Below are positions 30,672 to 37,460 of a stretch of 64,000 nucleotides of DNA, piece after piece. The position numbers and the translations under genes were made by a program. The stretch spans positions 62,001 to 126,000 of the forward strand of contig NZ_FNVU01000007.1 in assembly GCF_900107965.1 (NCBI RefSeq), written 5' to 3'. Within the stretch, counting starts at the first letter, position 1. The number at the start of each line of letters is the position of its first letter. A model generated the notes under the pieces. That model saw only the letters and a program-made list of their open reading frames with translations. It was not told the DNA's origin and ran no database searches. The stretch is from Actinacidiphila yanglinensis. Its GTDB lineage: Bacteria; Actinomycetota; Actinomycetes; Streptomycetales; Streptomycetaceae.

Positions 30672-31565
30672 ATGGCGCATCACATCATGAGCAGCGGTCG
30701 CATGGAACTCGCGCTGCGCGCGCCCGAGGGCGATCGGCGGGACAACCCGTTCGCGCCGCCCCCTGAGGGCGCTCCGGACCGTCCGTGGCAGCCGCGGCGG
30801 CCGTCCGGTGACGCGGGCGAGGGGTCGGGAGCGGGTGGCGGGCACGCGTCCGGTTCCGGCGGCGGGTCCGGATCGGGTTCCGGCAGCGGGTCCGGATCGG
30901 GCTCCGGCGGCGACGGCTCAGGCTCAGGTGACGACTCGGGTTCGGGCGACTCCGGGCAGCAGGGTCAGCCCCCTCCCCCGCACGGCGCGCCCCAGGCGTG
31001 GGGCCATCAGTGGAGCAGCCGCCAGCCGCAGTCCGGACGCCCCGACCCGTTCGCCCGCCGGCCCGACAGCCAGCAGGGGCCGAACGGACCGCAGGGCCAG
31101 GGCCCGCGCTTCGACCCGACCGACCCGGCGCAGCGCCGCTCGCGCTACTCGCTGGTGTGCGGCGGCTGGGGCCTGATCTTCTCGCTGCTCGGCTGGACCC
31201 CGGTGGGCCTGCTGCTCGGCGCGCTCGCCCTCTACTGGGGCATCAGCGCGATGCGGATGTCCCCGGAGGACCGCGCCAACGCCCGCGCCCAGGCCGCCTC
31301 CGCGCTCGCCGACGCCACCCAGACCCCCCGCCCGGCGCCGCCCGCGCCCGGCCCGGACGCCCAGCGCTCCTTCCTCACCGCGGCCTGGACCGGCATCGTC
31401 ACCAGCGCGCTCACCCTCGCCATCGTCGGCGCCACCTACGGCTTCCAGATCGCCTACCGCGACTACTACGACTGCAAGGCCGACGCGCTGACCGCCCCGG
31501 CCTCGCACGCCTGCCAGAAGCTCCTCCCCTCGCCGCTGCGCGGCCTGCCGGCCCTGAAGGACTAG
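30672..31565 (+). CDS. Membrane protein with Gly/Ser-rich N-terminus, function unknown
   Basis: 297 residues. The N-terminal 160 residues are disordered: Pro-rich, then a Gly-Ser tract (about 53-95, nearly pure G/S/D), then Gln/Pro-rich sequence. Two hydrophobic regions (about 163-190 and 240-262) surround a cytoplasmic loop with M-S-P-E-D-R-A. It ends with an extracytoplasmic stretch holding two cysteines (Y-D-C and H-A-C) that could form a disulfide. The helices resemble DUF4190-type small membrane proteins. ATG 30672 abuts AAGGGG, so ATG 30687 or 30702 may be the true start. Streptomycete cores carry a similar gene beside purN. Confidence 0.72.
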   Translation: MAHHIMSSGRMELALRAPEGDRRDNPFAPPPEGAPDRPWQPRRPSGDAGEGSGAGGGHASGSGGGSGSGSGSGSGSGSGGDGSGSGDDSGSGDSGQQGQPPPPHGAPQAWGHQWSSRQPQSGRPDPFARRPDSQQGPNGPQGQGPRFDPTDPAQRRSRYSLVCGGWGLIFSLLGWTPVGLLLGALALYWGISAMRMSPEDRANARAQAASALADATQTPRPAPPAPGPDAQRSFLTAAWTGIVTSALTLAIVGATYGFQIAYRDYYDCKADALTAPASHACQKLLPSPLRGLPALKD

Positions 31566-31586
31566 GCGAGGGCGCCCCAAAGGCAC

Positions 31587-31654
31587 GTCCACGGCCCGGC
31601 GGGGGCGGTCCCCCACCGGGCCGTCCCGCGTGCCGCCCCCGCCGGGCCGTGGAC
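31587..31654. terminator. Perfect 22-bp inverted repeat, convergent terminator
   Basis: 31587-31608 (GTCCACGGCCCGGCGGGGGC...) is the exact complement of 31633-31654, with a 24-nt loop. An alternative internal hairpin GGCCCGG/CCGGGCC (31593-31599 with about 31616-31622) is mutually exclusive with it. It lies between convergent genes. Confidence 0.85.
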
Positions 31655-31688
31655 CTCGTTCGGCCCAAGCGGCGCGCACGGTCGTCCC

Positions 31689-32594
31689 TCAGCAGGGCGA
31701 ACGCGATCCGCTGCGCCGGCGGCTCGGCAGGGTCGCCTGCACGCAGCCCGCGTCGGAGTGCCCCGTGCCGGCCGCGGCCGCGGATCTGCCCGCGTCCGGC
31801 GACCGGTGCACGGAGCCGGCGGCCGGGCTGCCCGCGGTGACGGCGAGGATGACCCGGATGCCCTCGGCGAAGTGCCGCTGCGGGACCGGGATCTCGTAGC
31901 CGTCGTCCCGCACGTAGCCGACCGCGCCGGGCGCGTAGTCCATGACGGCGTCCACGAGTTCGGTACGCGGCCGGCCGGCGCGCCCGGCGCGGCCCGCGAG
32001 CAGCCCGAGGATGCGCAGCACGGTCGGCGTGCTCGCGTCCGCGTCGTACACCTGCTGCGCCTCCTGGTAGGAGACGGTCACCCCGCGCCGCGCGGGGAGC
32101 GCTGCGCCGCTGCGCGAGGGCGGGGTGTCGAGGCGGGTCCGGCCGCGCCACAGGGACGCCAGGTCGGTCTCCCCCAGCGAACGGTGGTGCAGGTAGAGGC
32201 AGTAGGACGCGGTGCCGTTCCCGGCCCCGGCGGCGTACTGCCACCAGAAGCGCGCGCCGTCCTCGTCCGCGGCGAGCTGCAGGATGCAGGCCAGGACGTT
32301 CGCGCCCTGCGGGGCCGGAAGATGCTCGGCCTCGAAGTCCTCCAGCGCGGTGGCGGTGTGCGCGACGACCGCCTCGCACAGCGTCCGCAGGTCGTGCCCC
32401 GCGGCGTCGCTGTCGTGCCAGCCCTCGGGGATCGGCGCCGGCCAGCCCTGGCCGTGCGCGGCGGAGGCCGTCGCTCCCGCGGCCCGGCCGGCGGCGGGCG
32501 CCTCACGCGGGACCGCGGGGTCGTCCAGGAGCAGGGCGCGGGACAGCAGGACGTCGACGGGAGCCGGCGGGGTCTTCGGAGTCGGCGGAGTCAC
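31689..32594 (-). CDS. Hypothetical protein, third gene of XRE-sigma operon
   Basis: 301 residues, no signal peptide or membrane helix. A helical, Ala-rich N-terminal half holds A-C-I-L-Q-L-A-A-D-E-D-G-A-R-F-W-W-Q-Y-A-A-G-A-G and S-Y-C-L-Y-L-H-H-R-S-L-G-E, spaced like TPR or SEL1-type helical repeats; I have seen similar sequences next to XRE/sigma-like genes in streptomycetes. The second half ends in a Ser/Arg-rich tail. GTG 32594 overlaps the TGA of the upstream gene (GTGA), so translation is coupled. Function unknown; perhaps a partner of the sigma-like protein. Confidence 0.75.
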   Translation of the reverse strand: MTPPTPKTPPAPVDVLLSRALLLDDPAVPREAPAAGRAAGATASAAHGQGWPAPIPEGWHDSDAAGHDLRTLCEAVVAHTATALEDFEAEHLPAPQGANVLACILQLAADEDGARFWWQYAAGAGNGTASYCLYLHHRSLGETDLASLWRGRTRLDTPPSRSGAALPARRGVTVSYQEAQQVYDADASTPTVLRILGLLAGRAGRAGRPRTELVDAVMDYAPGAVGYVRDDGYEIPVPQRHFAEGIRVILAVTAGSPAAGSVHRSPDAGRSAAAAGTGHSDAGCVQATLPSRRRSGSRSPC

Positions 32595-33502
32595 TGGGTT
32601 CCTCCCGGGTGGTGCTGGTCGAGAATGTGGGCCAGGCGCCGCCTGGCGTAGCGGTCGGCGTGGAGCACCGACGCGAGCGGCACGCCCAGGACCTCGGCGA
32701 CGACGTCGTCGGGCAGGCCGCGCAGGTGCTTGAGGACCGCGACATCGAGCTGCTGGTCGGGCAGGGCGCCCACCGCGTGGAAGAGCCGCATGGACTCCTC
32801 GATCTGCGCGAGCTGCCCCCCGGGCGGGGTGCGGCTGAGCACTTCGGTGCCGAACCCGGCGGCCCGCAGGTCGGGGCGGCCGTCGCCGGTGCACGGGGTG
32901 CGCGCCATCACGGACTGCCGCAGCACCCGCCAGCCGTACCGCCGGATGTCGGGGCTGGCGAGGGCTTCGTCCCAGCGCAGCCAGAGGATGTCGAAGGTCT
33001 CGGTGACGACCTGCTCGGCCTGCTCGGCATCGGCCAGGAAGACCCGCGCGTAGAGCGTGTAGCGGCGGCCGTTGAGCTGGGTGAAGCCCCGGTGGTCCAC
33101 CGGCGGCAGGTCGGGGCGCGGGTCGGCGGCGGCCTTCCTGGCGACGGCCTTCTGCGCGTCGATCCAGTCCCGCTTCTTGTTCGCCTCGACCGCGGCCGTC
33201 GCCCACAGCCGCAGCACGGGGGGCGTGGGTATGCCGAGCACCACGAGCACGCTGCAGGTGATCTCCCAGCGCGGGTAGAGCCCTGTCCCGCGCAGGAGTT
33301 CGGAGATCTTCGACTTCGCGTAGTTGGTGCGCTCGCTCAGGTCGCCCACCGTCATCCCGCTGGCGAGGAAGCAGTCGCGGACCGGCTCCAGCCAGGCCCG
33401 GTGCGCGACCCCCACCTCCGGTGCGACGGGGCCGAGTTTGCGGCCCGGCCTACTGGGGGGCTCCCCCTCCGGCTGCTCGGAGAGCACCGAACGCGGGGTC
33501 AC
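32591..33502 (-). CDS. XRE-type HTH fused to sigma-70-like regions
   Basis: 303 residues. Helix-turn-helix of XRE type at about 35-85 (L-A-S-G-M-T-V-G-D-L-S-E-R-T-N-Y-A-K-S-K-I), a basic linker, then a helical block at 140-200 resembling sigma region 2 (R-Y-T-L-Y-A-R-V-F-L, then D-I-L-W-L-R-W-D-E-A) and one at 240-300 resembling sigma region 4 (L-P-D-Q-Q-L-D-V-A-V-L, L-P-D-D-V-V-A-E-V-L-G-V). This could be an ECF-like sigma factor with its own operator-binding domain. GTG 33502 overlaps the stop of the small membrane gene (GTGA). Confidence 0.78.
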   Translation of the reverse strand: MTPRSVLSEQPEGEPPSRPGRKLGPVAPEVGVAHRAWLEPVRDCFLASGMTVGDLSERTNYAKSKISELLRGTGLYPRWEITCSVLVVLGIPTPPVLRLWATAAVEANKKRDWIDAQKAVARKAAADPRPDLPPVDHRGFTQLNGRRYTLYARVFLADAEQAEQVVTETFDILWLRWDEALASPDIRRYGWRVLRQSVMARTPCTGDGRPDLRAAGFGTEVLSRTPPGGQLAQIEESMRLFHAVGALPDQQLDVAVLKHLRGLPDDVVAEVLGVPLASVLHADRYARRRLAHILDQHHPGGTQ

Positions 33503-33765
33503 CTGGTGCGCTCCTCGTCCGGGGCCGCCACCGGCGCGGGCGCCGGGGTGGGCGCGGGCGCGGGAACCGGGGCGGGCGGCGGAACCTGCGCCGCGGGCCG
33601 CTTCGTACCGCCGTCGGTCAGCGCCTTGACGACCTGCTGGGCGAGCAGGCCGACGGACGGGACCAGGGTCGCGATCGCGGCGACCTGGCCGAGTGCGGCC
33701 ATCACCACGCTCCATGCGAGGACCGTCACCAGCCCGATGACGACCAGCACCTGATTTGTGAACAT
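33499..33765 (-). CDS. Small membrane protein, first gene of XRE-sigma operon
   Basis: 88 residues: two transmembrane helices (about 4-25 and 27-48) then a Pro/Ala-rich cytoplasmic tail (P-A-P repeats) ending E-E-R-T-R. ATG 33765 has GGAAGG 4-5 nt upstream. It is joined by a GTGA overlap to the XRE-sigma gene. A small membrane protein coupled to a sigma-like regulator suggests an anchor or anti-sigma-like partner, but there is no sequence match to known anti-sigma domains. Confidence 0.72.
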   Translation of the reverse strand: MFTNQVLVVIGLVTVLAWSVVMAALGQVAAIATLVPSVGLLAQQVVKALTDGGTKRPAAQVPPPAPVPAPAPTPAPAPVAAPDEERTR

Positions 33766-34197
33766 CTGACCTTCCCACGTGCCGTACGAATGTCCGGAAG
33801 GGGCTTCCGGGGGCGGTGCCGACGCGCCGTCAGGAAGCCGGGGAGCCAGCATGATGGGAAGGCGGGCGGATACGCCACGTGATCATGGGATCACGGAACA
33901 TTGGGTGCGCGGGCGCGGGGGCGCACGGTACCGCCGATGCCCCGACGGCGCGGGCGGAACGGCCGGTTGACGCCCCGTGAGGGGTGAAGTCCCCTGCTTT
34001 CGTTGCGCGTTGGGGCGAGGTCGGCGCCAATGGGAGGACAGGCGCCGTCGGCGCCGACCTTCCTGTCCGGAAGGCCGCGCGGTCCCTCCGTGCCGATACG
34101 AGGGGGGACGCGCTGCGTTCCCGCCCGGCCGCACCAGGTGCGGGCCGGGCGGGAGCGGTGAACGGGAGCAGCGCGCGGGGTCGGCTCGGCCGGTGGG
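33766..34197. other. 432-bp intergenic region with operator-like and terminator-like repeats
   Basis: No credible gene. It holds CGTGATC-N4-GATCACG (33878-33895), an operator-like palindrome about 113 bp upstream of the small membrane gene, and a hairpin GGTCGGCGCC (34019-34028) / GGCGCCGACC (34050-34059) that probably terminates the DUF6350 transcript. Confidence 0.6.
33878..33895 (-). promoter_or_regulatory. Palindrome, candidate operator of the XRE-sigma operon
   Basis: CGTGATCATGGGATCACG: 7-bp arms with a 4-bp centre, upstream of the three-gene operon that encodes an XRE-type HTH. Binding by that protein is inference. Confidence 0.5.
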
Positions 34198-36138
34198 CTA
34201 CGCGGGCTCCTCCGGCGGCTCGGGCGCCGGGGCCGTTTCCTTCGCGGGTGTCCCGTCCGCAGGCGCCACGTCCTTCGGCGCGATGTCCGAGGGCGCGGGC
34301 GGTTCGGGGAGCGCCTCGACGGGGGGTTCAGTGGGCAGTTCCGCCGGGGGTTCCGCGGGCGGGCCGGCCGGAGGCTCCGCCGCCGGCTCGGGCGGGGGAC
34401 CGGCCGGCGGTTCCGACGGGGGCTCCTCGGGGCGGGGCGGGATCGGGGTCGGGGGCGCCGCTGGGGACACCGGCGGGGTCGGGGGCGCGGACGGCGGCAG
34501 GTCCGGCAGCGGCGGCGGGAAGAGCGGCAGCGGGGCCGGGCTGGGCCAGGGCAGCGGATCGGAGTGCGCCGGGCCTGGCCCGTGCAGGGGGAACCCGGCC
34601 GACGGCGCGGCAGCGCCCGCTCCCCCGTACCCGGGCGGGCCCGCGGGCGCCGCCGGCACCGTACCGCCGGGTTCGTCCGGGCCGGCCGGGCGCACCGCCG
34701 ACCTCCGCAGCCGCGGCCAGGGCACGTCCGGCATCCGCGGCCGGGGAACCCGCATCCCTCCGACCAACGCCCGCCACGGGTGCGGCGGATGGGCCACGTG
34801 GTAGCGCATGACCAGCGCCGCCGGCACCGCGATCACCAGGGTCCACCCGGTCGCCGCCGCCCCCGCCAGCCACCAGCGCGGCCCGAAGTCGGCGAGGCGG
34901 TGCAGGCCGATCGGCCCGCCCGACCAGGCGGCGAGCACGGCGACACCGATGCCCAGGAACAGCGTGGCGCCCGCCGTGACGCGGACCGTGCTCCACACCG
35001 GCCAGGCGTCGTTCCCGACACACCAGGCCAGCCCGAGCGCGGCGAGCACGGGCAGCGCGAGCGTGGTCCAGCCGACCCAGCACGTCCCGCTGTGCGGCAG
35101 CGCGGCCAGCAGCGGGAACCCGGGCAGCAGCAGGTAGCCCGAGGCGCCGGCCGGGGCCACCGCACTGCCCGCGCCGACCGAGAAGCCGACGCCCAGCGCG
35201 TACGCCGACGCCCACACGACGAGGTTCGGCACCAGTCCGACGGCCAGCAGCAGCACCGAGACCCGCCCCACCAGCGGCCCGCTGAGCTGCTGGAACGACC
35301 GCCCGACCGCGCCGCCGTGCCACGCCAGCGCGATCGCCCCGATCAGTGCCCCGCCGGCCAGCAGCAGCCCGCAGGCCAGGGCGGCGGCCCGCAGCGCCGC
35401 GCCGGCCTCCTCGGCGTACGCGCGGTGCAGCCGGTGCACCCGCGCGCTCCGGACGCGGCCGAGCGGCAGCCGCTCCGCGCCCGGCCGCCCGCAGCCGGCC
35501 CACGCGCCGCACCCGGCCGCGGCGGCCGCGAACACCGGCACGTACAGGGCGCTCAGGGGGTCGACGTGGACCGTGCCGCCGGTCGCGTAGACCACGGCGA
35601 TCACGGCGAGGGTGAGGTAGCCCGCGAGCACCCAGCCGGCCACCGTGAGCGCGACGTGCAGCCGGGCCTGACCGGAGAGGCGGCCGTCGGGATCGCCGCC
35701 GCCCCCGGCACGGTCCGGCCCGCCGGCGAACTCCCGTCCTCCGGCGCCGGGAGACCCGCCGGAGCCGTCGGGTGCGTCGGCGTCCTTGCCGTCGACCGCG
35801 GCGGCCACCGCCGCGGCCGTGCCGCGGAAGACCAGCCACGCGGGCAGCGCGCTGAGCAGCAGCGGCGCCACGTCGACGGGAGCAGGGTCACCGGAGAGGG
35901 TCTCGGTGCGCACCAGGTCCGCGCCCTGCGCGAGCAGCCAGAGCCCGGCCCCCACGTGCAGAGCGCCGCCGAGCCCGCTGTCGGGGTAGGGCGAGCCGAT
36001 CCACAGCAGCAGCACGGCGGCGGCGATCCCGCCGAGCCCGAGCCCGGCGGCGACCGCGCCCGTGGCCAGCCCGGACACGCGGAGGGCGGCCCAGCGCGGC
36101 GGCGGGGCGGATACGGAAGCGGTCAGCGGCTCGCTCAT
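34198..36138 (-). CDS. DUF6350 (PerM-like) polytopic membrane protein
   Basis: 646 residues with about ten transmembrane helices between 20 and 435, interrupted by a Gly/Asp-rich loop (about 120-155), and a proline-rich cytoplasmic tail of about 170 residues with many P-E-P and E-P-P-A-G-P units. Landmarks: R-V-S-G-L-A-T-G-A, F-Q-Q-L-S-G-P-L-V-G-R, W-A-S-A-Y-A-L-G-V-G-F, P-A-G-A-S-G-Y-L-L-L-P-G-F-P-L-L-A-A-L-P, as in actinobacterial DUF6350 proteins (annotated as cell-division/PerM-like). It sits in the conserved purN to sucD interval. ATG 36138 is preferred to 36165 because homologues begin near here. It is divergent from the sigma-like gene at 36303. Confidence 0.85.
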   Translation of the reverse strand: MSEPLTASVSAPPPRWAALRVSGLATGAVAAGLGLGGIAAAVLLLWIGSPYPDSGLGGALHVGAGLWLLAQGADLVRTETLSGDPAPVDVAPLLLSALPAWLVFRGTAAAVAAAVDGKDADAPDGSGGSPGAGGREFAGGPDRAGGGGDPDGRLSGQARLHVALTVAGWVLAGYLTLAVIAVVYATGGTVHVDPLSALYVPVFAAAAAGCGAWAGCGRPGAERLPLGRVRSARVHRLHRAYAEEAGAALRAAALACGLLLAGGALIGAIALAWHGGAVGRSFQQLSGPLVGRVSVLLLAVGLVPNLVVWASAYALGVGFSVGAGSAVAPAGASGYLLLPGFPLLAALPHSGTCWVGWTTLALPVLAALGLAWCVGNDAWPVWSTVRVTAGATLFLGIGVAVLAAWSGGPIGLHRLADFGPRWWLAGAAATGWTLVIAVPAALVMRYHVAHPPHPWRALVGGMRVPRPRMPDVPWPRLRRSAVRPAGPDEPGGTVPAAPAGPPGYGGAGAAAPSAGFPLHGPGPAHSDPLPWPSPAPLPLFPPPLPDLPPSAPPTPPVSPAAPPTPIPPRPEEPPSEPPAGPPPEPAAEPPAGPPAEPPAELPTEPPVEALPEPPAPSDIAPKDVAPADGTPAKETAPAPEPPEEPA

Positions 36139-36302
36139 CTGCGTCACGGCGACCCATGGTGTCATTTGGACCCGTTTCGCCCCGGGAGAAGGCAGAAAGT
36201 CGACGTGTCGGTCACTATGGCCGTTATGTGTCTTTTTATCGGACCGTCACGTCAGCGGATGGACGCCACCGGAATGGCGCAGGCCCGGCAGGAGGCGGAC
36301 CG

Positions 36303-37460
36303 ATGAGTTCACGGCGCAGGTCCCGCAAGCGCTCCACGGCCGGAGGGACGGCGCGGACCCCGCGGCCGCCCCGCGCCCCCCGCACTCCGGGCGCCTCGGG
36401 CAGCCCGGCCGCACCCACCGCCCTCGCCGACCCCGCGGGCGCCCGTCCCGCCGCACCCTCGGCCGCAGGCCACGCCCCCGCTACGGCCGGGCACCCCAGG
36501 ACCACCGCCGCCCCGGGTGCGGCCACGCTCGTGGCCGCCACCGCTCCGACCTCCATCGGCGCCCCCACCAGGACGGCCACGGAGGCACCCGCGCCCGCAG
36601 CCCCGGACGCGACCACGGCACCTTCACCGGCACCGGCACCGGCACCCGCTGACGCGACCGCGGCACCCGCACCCGCACCCGCACGAACGCCCCCGCCCGC
36701 CCTGGCCCTTGGGCTGCCCGACGACGCCACCCCCGAGAACGCTTTCGACGCCCTCTACACGCACGCGGCCGGCCCGCTGCTGCACCAGGTGGAGCTGCTG
36801 ACCGGTGACACGGTGCGCGCCCGGCAGTCCGTGGCACACGCCTTCGATCTGGCCTGGCAGCGCTGGGAGGAGGTGGCGCAGGACAGCGACCCGGTGGGGT
36901 GGGTGCGCGCGACGGCGTACGAGCACGCGCTCGCGCCCTGGCAGCGGTGGGTGCCGTCGTGGGCGGGCGGGCACCGGCCGCGGCCGCGGATCCCCGCGGA
37001 CCCGCTGGCGGCGGCCCTGCTCACGCTGCCCCCGGTCCGCCGCAAGGCGGTCCTGCTCCATGACGGCCTGGGGCTCGACCTGCCCGCGACGGCCGCGGAG
37101 GCGGAGGCAGGCGAGGAGGCGGCCGCGGCGCGGATCGCCGGCGCCCGCGAGGCGCTGACCGAGGCGGTGCCCGACCTCTCGGCCGAGGCGCTGCCGGTGC
37201 GGCTGGGCGCCCTGCTCGACGGCGGCGCAGGTACCGAGCCGGAGCCGCCGGACCGCCCGGAGGGCGTGCGGGACGCGAGCCGGCGGGGTGCCCGGCGCCG
37301 TACCTTCGGGGCGTACGCGCTCACCGCGGCGATTGCGGTGGCCACCACCGCGGCGGTGATCCTCACCCCGGCCCACCAGTCGTCCCGCCGGCCGGTCCGG
37401 CCCGGACCGGCAGCGACGGTGCACGCACCCGCCCGTACCGGCGGTCAGGGCTCCCCCTGA
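36303..37460 (+). CDS. Sigma-70-like protein with C-terminal transmembrane helix
   Basis: 385 residues. A disordered Pro/Ala/Thr N-terminus (1-138), a sigma region 2-like helical block (about 140-215; F-D-A-L-Y-T-H-A-A, then A-R-Q-S-V-A-H-A-F-D-L-A-W-Q-R-W), and a region 4-like block (about 225-285; L-L-T-L-P-P-V-R-R-K-A-V-L-L-H-D-G-L-G-L-D-L-P-A-T-A) in which the -35-recognising helix is degenerate. A transmembrane helix follows (about 334-358). Sigma-like protein tethered to the membrane; it may not bind promoters at all. ATG 36303 has AGGAGG 6 nt upstream. The gene lies in the conserved sucD neighbourhood. Confidence 0.7.
   Translation: MSSRRRSRKRSTAGGTARTPRPPRAPRTPGASGSPAAPTALADPAGARPAAPSAAGHAPATAGHPRTTAAPGAATLVAATAPTSIGAPTRTATEAPAPAAPDATTAPSPAPAPAPADATAAPAPAPARTPPPALALGLPDDATPENAFDALYTHAAGPLLHQVELLTGDTVRARQSVAHAFDLAWQRWEEVAQDSDPVGWVRATAYEHALAPWQRWVPSWAGGHRPRPRIPADPLAAALLTLPPVRRKAVLLHDGLGLDLPATAAEAEAGEEAAAARIAGAREALTEAVPDLSAEALPVRLGALLDGGAGTEPEPPDRPEGVRDASRRGARRRTFGAYALTAAIAVATTAAVILTPAHQSSRRPVRPGPAATVHAPARTGGQGSP

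Follow-up and report, generated by a model that had tools for sequence, protein, structure and literature searches.

A conserved Streptomycetaceae operon encoding a helix-turn-helix protein with degenerate sigma-like domains, and its candidate control element

Extracytoplasmic function (ECF) sigma factors of the SigE family (TIGR02983) carry sigma2 and sigma4 domains in that order, PhyR-type sigma mimics carry a degenerate sigma2/sigma4 part in compact form together with a receiver domain, and autoregulators of the XRE/HTH_31 type combine a helix-turn-helix (HTH) head, as in ClgR and YmfM, with a palindrome beside their own promoter. Here we describe a three-gene operon of Actinacidiphila yanglinensis whose second gene shows likenesses to each of these. 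The window, that is, the whole stretch of DNA analysed, comprises 64,000 nucleotides (assembly GCF_900107965.1, contig NZ_FNVU01000007.1, positions 62,001-126,000, forward strand); the operon lies at window positions 31689-33765, with all of its open reading frames (ORFs) on the minus strand. Gene 2 shares domain order, fold and a profile match with the SigE family, but it scores far below the family cut-off, has lost core-contact and -10 residues, has an extra N-terminal HTH and has no recognised anti-sigma gene. Unlike PhyR, it has an XRE-type HTH where PhyR has a receiver domain, has a putative operator of its own and belongs to another phylum. In contrast to the XRE/HTH_31 autoregulators, its C-terminal part is sigma-derived, and its operon includes a membrane protein and a Sel1/TPR-like partner. 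We consider it somewhat probable that the operon is a mobile, self-contained Streptomycetaceae cassette in which gene 2 autoregulates through its XRE head, its sigma part serves as a contact module, and genes 1 and 3 tune the system.

A sigma-like protein with an added N-terminal domain is also found among the ECF sigma factors with N-terminal extensions, for which a 2021 review notes that there is no mechanistic information on regulation by such extensions (PMC8103513). Neither 'helix-turn-helix' nor 'XRE' occurs in the main text of that review. Sigma-derived and XRE-type parts are known singly; in the portions of the open-access literature covered, which included PMC8103513, PMC8999054 and PMC6662830, we noticed no mention of the two combined, nor of the partner proteins or the control region described here.

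The sequence-only reading of this DNA had proposed three genes coupled by two GTGA overlaps, and the coordinates and overlaps are confirmed. Gene 1 (33499-33765, minus strand) encodes a membrane protein of 88 amino acids, as judged by translation and hydropathy; gene 2 (32591-33502, minus strand, GTG start) encodes 303 amino acids with HTH, sigma2-like and sigma4-like parts; and gene 3 (31689-32594, minus strand, GTG start) encodes 301 amino acids with a Sel1/TPR-like helical core. Both overlaps are GTGA and four nucleotides long, at 33502-33499 (genes 1 and 2) and 32594-32591 (genes 2 and 3). A four-nucleotide gene 1/gene 2 overlap is present in 42 of the 52 rows of a first locus set, which includes the window locus and one duplicate pair (L080/L113). 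A second set comprised 60 loci that are new in sequence and possibly close kin of the earlier ones. A hydrophobic small ORF was recognised in 48 of the 57 loci examined from it; all 48 have a GTGA or ATGA overlap between genes 1 and 2, and 46 of them have the same between genes 2 and 3. The operon is real and conserved.

Gene 2 is laid out as an XRE-type HTH (residues ~32-106), a sigma2-like region (~135-201) and a sigma4-like region (~230-296). Pfam HTH_31 matches residues 47-93 (E 1.4e-4; 22.6 bits, below the cut-off of 27), and the NCBIfam SigE family TIGR02983 matches residues 141-295 (E 4.5e-12; 46.2 bits, below the cut-off of 141.55). Among 42 members of the gene 2 family, TIGR02983 matches all 42, the window protein included, while HTH_31 matches 32 and Sigma70_r4_2 matches 30, both at E<=0.01. 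An AlphaFold2 model from a 36-sequence alignment (predicted local distance difference test (pLDDT) 90.1, predicted template modelling score 0.84) was compared with known structures. Foldseek returned ECF sigma factors for sigma2 and sigma4, with SigW (E 6.1e-4) the sole match under 0.001, and ClgR for the N-terminal part (probability 1.0 but E 0.15). VIA-align gave CnrH at Z 13.1 (root-mean-square deviation (rmsd) 5.3 over 143 amino acids), SigW at Z 12.6 (rmsd 5.2 over 142), SigG1 at Z 11.3, PhyR at Z 11.2 and 10.4 and, for the HTH part, YmfM at Z 8.2. Helical models can reach Z ~13 through shared arrangement alone, so the sequence profile carries the claim of sigma kinship as much as the fold does. 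In the predicted structure gene 2 has an HTH and an ECF-type sigma2/sigma4 fold, with the domains in order; the fusion of an XRE HTH to sigma-like regions 2 and 4 that had been called from the letters alone is thus upheld by profiles and model, sigma-like helices included.

The residues by which sigma factors work have largely been lost. As reference we used 13 SigE-family proteins from the same genome, these being the above-cut-off ones among its 93 SigE-family matches. The DLVQE motif of region 2.2 contacts core RNA polymerase, and basic and polar residues of region 2.4 read the -10 element. In the HTH-fused family the D of DLVQE is kept in 0/107 and the Q in 1/107, against 13/13 and 12/13 of the reference proteins; the region 2.4 N is kept in 0/42 and the second R in 2/42, against 8/13 and 13/13; and the region 4.2 R is kept in 0/42 against 13/13, with a region 4.2 K/R retained in 21/42 against 13/13. 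A less changed comparison comes from sister modules whose sigma-like gene lacks the HTH (e.g. L122:4106-5684, L164-L178, and the S. anulatus plasmid NZ_CP109263). Their make-up of small ORF, sigma-like gene and gene 3 homologue mirrors that of the window operon, but they have no HTH and no composite control element, and they partly keep region 2.4 and TVRS. Seven HTH-less loci were set aside as copies. Nine such proteins are intermediate at some positions (D 4/9, N 5/9, R 7/9, K/R 9/9). They are also without the DLVQE Q (0/9) and the region 4.2 R (0/9), which counts against linking the whole of the loss to the HTH; part of the sigma decay therefore predates the fusion. We infer from these alignments that the HTH branch shifted DNA reading to its new head and abandoned ordinary sigma work, in a decay that had begun earlier.

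These losses bear directly on the possibility that gene 2 is a working ECF-type sigma factor, in which the HTH helps or replaces promoter choice and brings core polymerase to the palindrome. The sigma2 and sigma4 folds with their CnrH and SigW alignments, the Sigma70_r4_2 matches, the partly kept region 4.2 K/R and the control-region word TGTTCC, whose reverse complement GGAACA seems to resemble ECF -35 elements, would all fit such a factor. We nevertheless consider it unlikely, because the core-contact D and Q have been lost, as have the N and the second R of region 2.4 and, in region 4.2, the R, and the conserved DNA has a putative -35/-10 pair of ordinary type with 18-nucleotide spacing. 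The earlier suggestion that the protein recruits RNA polymerase as a sigma factor accordingly finds no favour here: DLVQE and the region 2.4 residues are gone, and the adjacent DNA resembles an ordinary -35/-10 pair for another sigma factor. Gene 2 would rather be a transcription factor or sigma mimic assembled from sigma parts.

For a mimic of the PhyR kind, the degenerate sigma part would titrate an anti-sigma factor, the HTH would autoregulate, and genes 1 and 3 would modulate. The compact model aligns over sigma2 and sigma4 together with sigma factors bound to anti-sigma factors, and with PhyR itself (rmsd 4.3 over 119 amino acids and 4.7 over 125 for the two alignments); two-domain alignments with RNA-polymerase-bound ECF sigma factors give rmsd >20, those of single domains being good; and the loss of DNA- and core-contact residues is as expected of a mimic. 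Yet anti-sigma-bound SigK also aligns poorly (rmsd 12.4), and the compact form may be the AlphaFold default for free sigma factors, with Z up to ~13 perhaps reflecting arrangement alone. There is also no receiver domain in gene 2 (Pfam matches up to E 1), its N-terminal part being the HTH, and no anti-sigma gene was recognised in the operon. We regard the mimic as doubtful.

Upstream of gene 1 lies the candidate control region, all of it read on the minus strand. The palindromic operator CGTGATC-N4-GATCACG (33878-33895) has exact arms and a single copy in the window; sites with <=3 mismatches number 3 there against 4.4 expected and are no commoner than chance. It is thus conservation across relatives, not rarity in the window, that sets the palindrome beyond chance. 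It belongs to a composite element whose upstream edge is TGTTCC (33895-33900; base 33895 is common to this word and the palindrome). After nine further bases come TGATCAC and a G, then a hexamer, TGGCGT here (33872-33877), 18 unconserved bases and finally CATGCT (33848-33853). The distance between hexamer and CATGCT is that of a -35/-10 pair; on this reading the palindrome covers about -54 to -37 of a putative promoter.

In the second set, after leaving out three loci with short upstream sequence, TGTTCC and CATGCT (variants allowed) lie 40 or 41 nucleotides apart in 53 of 57 loci, within a search range of 39-42 nucleotides. This figure gives the frequency of the element; a further set of 107 aligned elements was chosen for having one with a 39-42 gap. 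That set was reduced from 116 by removing duplicates, after leaving out L026, L109, L024 and L110, and it is also without loci that lack the element or have short upstream sequence or a short protein; the element alignment itself left out L026, L109 and L024. The gap between the two anchors or their variants is 41 nucleotides in 91 of the 107 and 40 in 16, CATGCT is exact in 83, and the -35 hexamer is TGGCGT in 42 and TTGAGT in 12, with other hexamers in the rest. One clade lacks TGATCAC, and there TGTTCC and CATGCT are spaced by either 40 or 51, two values that differ by roughly one turn of the helix.

A scan of 394 sampled Streptomycetaceae genomes found 41 composite sites in 39 genomes, and none in any of the 394 with a reversed-pattern control. 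Full or partial gene 2 homologues (E<=1e-30) are present in 46 of the 394, and 38 of the 39 element-bearing genomes are among these 46. At 38 of the 41 sites a gene 2 match follows on the same strand after 300-483 nucleotides (two of these sites being on apparent duplicate contigs of genome G355), and two further sites, in G220 and G033, precede gene 1 in modules with a broken or cut gene 2. Among 43 regular-expression sites in the collected loci, a gene-1-like ORF follows 41, the exceptions being that of genome G390 and a stray opposite-strand match in L096. The G390 site (L248, G390:C1:280675) has two mismatches and no match to genes 1-3 downstream, and may be the remnant of a lost module. 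A genome-wide regulon for the element was rejected on account of its single site in the source genome. A divergent ECF promoter, with GGAACA read on the other strand, was likewise set aside, its left flank being unconserved by eye.

The palindrome abuts the putative -35 and the source genome has a single composite site, ahead of the operon; both points suggest that the cassette is autoregulated through gene 2. The earlier view of the palindrome as one operator among several stands in part: the site is exact and belongs to a conserved element, but it is not one of many.

The gene 2 HTH is the probable binder of the palindrome. The 19 regions upstream of HTH-less sigma-like genes (18 loci, close kin such as L027/L028 included) have neither the composite element nor the leader loop word TCRGCACC, which fits the HTH as the binder. 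Eight gene 2 proteins whose helix ends in RA are all without TGATC, and 81 of the 99 others have it. Several observations weigh on the other side. The eight RA-helix proteins stem from few lineages; 5 of the 15 proteins with an unchanged helix, AKSKISELLRG, stand beside a changed right half-site (no TGATCAC or CGATCAC); TGATC lies inside the element in no more than 32 of the 57 second-set loci, so that the right half-site is less constant than the two anchors; and TGATCA words precede 8 of the 19 HTH-less genes, where ~3 are expected, so another regulator could read them. Partial Mantel scans for covariation peak outside helix 3: the top windows start at 88-94 and 163-172 for the right half and at 238, 166-172 and 70 for TGGCGT. 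The scan is thus not specific to helix 3, and the view that it proves co-evolution of HTH and operator was rejected. The promoter and start site, moreover, are predictions from the sequence.

For what the cassette does, what it senses and what binds its operator we propose a model. Under it, the gene 2 protein would bind the palindrome as a dimer, through its XRE head, beside a weak -35, and when bound would control its own HrdB-type promoter. Activation seems more likely than repression, since the operator lies just upstream of the -35 and not over the -35/-10 pair. The sigma2/sigma4-like part would no longer do the work of an ordinary sigma factor but make contacts with protein and DNA, its possible partners being RNA polymerase, a different sigma factor, an anti-sigma factor and the product of gene 3. 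That product would be a dedicated partner of gene 2, and the gene 1 membrane protein a likely anchor or signal input that sets the amount of free gene 2/gene 3 complex. A novel mode of promoter choice is a possible, though tentative, extension: a sigma-derived body, stripped of its own -10 and core-contact residues and tethered by its XRE head at the palindrome beside the -35, would remodel or load the HrdB holoenzyme or an anti-sigma factor, and would travel with a membrane protein, a Sel1/TPR-like partner and a structured leader on linear replicons.

The leader in question contains a predicted hairpin with the conserved loop TCRGCAC (33802-33839, minus strand), which would lie near the 5' end of the transcript if the putative promoter is right. 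After CATGCT, 42 of 43 loci have a GCAC or GCAA loop word between arms that vary in sequence yet pair; the set holds near-identical loci, L103 (no GCAC) was left out of folding, and the near-duplicates L080/L104 were left out of the hairpin and neighbour-gene analyses. Against shuffled arms the mean z is -2.5, with 26 of the 42 hairpins below -2 and 16 not. Native arms fold at a mean of -21.8 kcal/mol compared with -16.6 for swapped arms; a native hairpin beats 80% of its own swaps on average, and 23 of the 42 beat at least 90%. The loop word is present within 70 nucleotides in 43 of the 53 element-bearing loci of the second set. Rfam gave no match to the hairpin beyond chance (mir-761, E 0.94).

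Gene 3 adjoins gene 2 in all 58 second-set loci with enough downstream sequence, and BLAST found it in 43 of the 52 first-set rows, window included. Among 20 loci picked for gene 3 matches in this genus (L164-L183), a sigma-like match is close by in 15, and two have no gene 3 match. On plasmid pSV2 genes 2 and 3 form a single 529-residue ORF (L119:4215-5804). If real, this fusion supports a physical partnership of the two proteins; that it may be a sequencing frameshift speaks against leaning on it. A structure model of gene 3, of modest confidence (pLDDT 70.5), has a helical Sel1/TPR-like core at ~63-157 and a small C-terminal alpha/beta part. The core aligns with 6onw, a Sel1 repeat protein (Z 10.1, rmsd 1.9 over 75 amino acids), and with SEL1L (Z 9.6, rmsd 3.4 over 86); unrelated helical repeats may score as high. 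Foldseek gave no E below 0.99 for gene 3, Sel1 is absent among the Pfam matches of 38 gene 3 members, and no Pfam or NCBIfam family scores above its cut-off. Some gene 3 homologues carry a DUF6207 part (by annotation in L116:6901-7890 and L120:4992-5957; by Pfam in 3 of 38 members).

The gene 1 protein is hydrophobic over residues ~1-47, with room for two membrane helices by hydropathy, and its tail is Pro/Ala-rich. A hydrophobic ORF was recognised ahead of gene 2 in 45 of 53 locus entries. The earlier suggestion of a membrane anchor thus holds as regards the membrane, and anchoring would be one of its likely roles. Classical membrane anti-sigma partners are typified by a zinc-binding motif with His and Cys; both residues are absent from the gene 1 translation, and a conventional membrane anti-sigma factor was therefore rejected. 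The coding sequence of gene 1 homologues in ten loci (L082, L085, L089, L091-L093, L095, L099, L101 and L110) contains the perfect palindrome AGCACGGTGATGACCGTGCT, which was set aside as a control site since it is coding sequence.

A small hydrophobic first gene also raises the question of a plasmid-maintenance or phage-defence cassette, with gene 1 as a membrane-active toxin and genes 2 and 3 as a repressor/antitoxin complex. The mobility and plasmid-richness of the module and the tie between its control element and a single operon would suit this, but in HTH-less modules gene 1 is often replaced by a different ORF of 51-66 amino acids (pattern ARxFxPDxRxLxRRxLAAGVRxGA, by eye), no toxin family or other family in Pfam or NCBIfam matches gene 1 above cut-off, and a three-gene set with a sigma-like regulator would be unusual for a toxin-antitoxin pair. 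We hold this origin to be very unlikely and keep to that of a cassette autoregulated by gene 2.

The cassette is mobile and turns up frequently on linear plasmids and at chromosome ends among relatives of Streptomyces. In PLSDB, gene 2 matches 115 plasmid records, 114 from Streptomyces and one from Embleya, and coverage reaches at least 80% in 53 of the 115; phage records gave no gene 2 match. Six plasmid stretches were inspected. In five, including those of pSTRVI01 and of SAP1 from S. avermitilis MA-4680 (gene 2 homologue WP_011109741.1), an annotated small ORF, the sigma-like gene and gene 3 stand together; the sixth, NZ_CP108091, has no annotated small ORF directly before the sigma-like gene. 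Eight of the 12 gene 2 matches on contigs >5 Mb lie within 500 kb of a contig end, contig ends being taken as chromosome ends, and the other four lie 0.9-3.4 Mb away. A single-protein peptide-pattern scan of genome contigs found no relative, whereas an alignment-based scan of named genomes found 124; the 80 that were kept comprise 78 from Streptomyces (one uncultured), one from Actinacidiphila and one from an unclassified actinobacterium. Alignment A1 leaves out L026, L024, L109, L110, L101, L098, L100, L115, L080 and L104, and alignment A4 additionally leaves out L093 and five plasmid-record rows (L113, L114, L116-L118). With its HTH-less sisters as the less-changed comparison, the cassette offers a compact and widespread natural experiment in which a sigma factor has seemingly turned into an operator-bound regulator; its cis element is sharply defined, and the cassette is a candidate for a role in the control of linear plasmids and chromosome arms.

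In the source genome the cassette is an insert in a core locus. The inserted stretch (31566-34287), whose right border is imprecise, is absent in 8 of 8 relatives fetched. Its neighbours are the gene at 36165-34198, which we take from synteny to be DUF6350-like, and the ORF at 30672-31565, next to a gene that is presumably purN; in all eight empty sites the DUF6350-like gene adjoins ORF 30672 directly. In the three relatives compared in detail homology ends at ~31563-31566 and resumes at ~34287 or later, whereas the DUF6350-like gene stops at 34198. Two of the eight do have a module at another place, which lies 468 kb from a contig end in G019 and 55 kb from one in G023. Gene 3 and ORF 30672-31565 are convergent, and between them, just past gene 3, lies a perfect 22-bp inverted repeat with 24 nucleotides between its arms (31587-31654), a possible terminator. 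No further gene was recognised in the insert, its other ORFs having had no family search.

Some further observations concern the surroundings of the modules. One locus (L073, G327:C1:36000-54000) holds two modules separated by ~10 kb, both of which have a control element of their own. Of 49 locus entries scanned, 9 have close to the module a gene from a family that includes an annotated HNH endonuclease-family protein; such genes also adjoin two HTH-less modules. In the window itself, the plus strand at 36156-37460 encodes another degenerate protein of the SigE family (TIGR02983 E 7.5e-15, under the cut-off); judged by eye, its C-terminal part is likely to hold a membrane segment.

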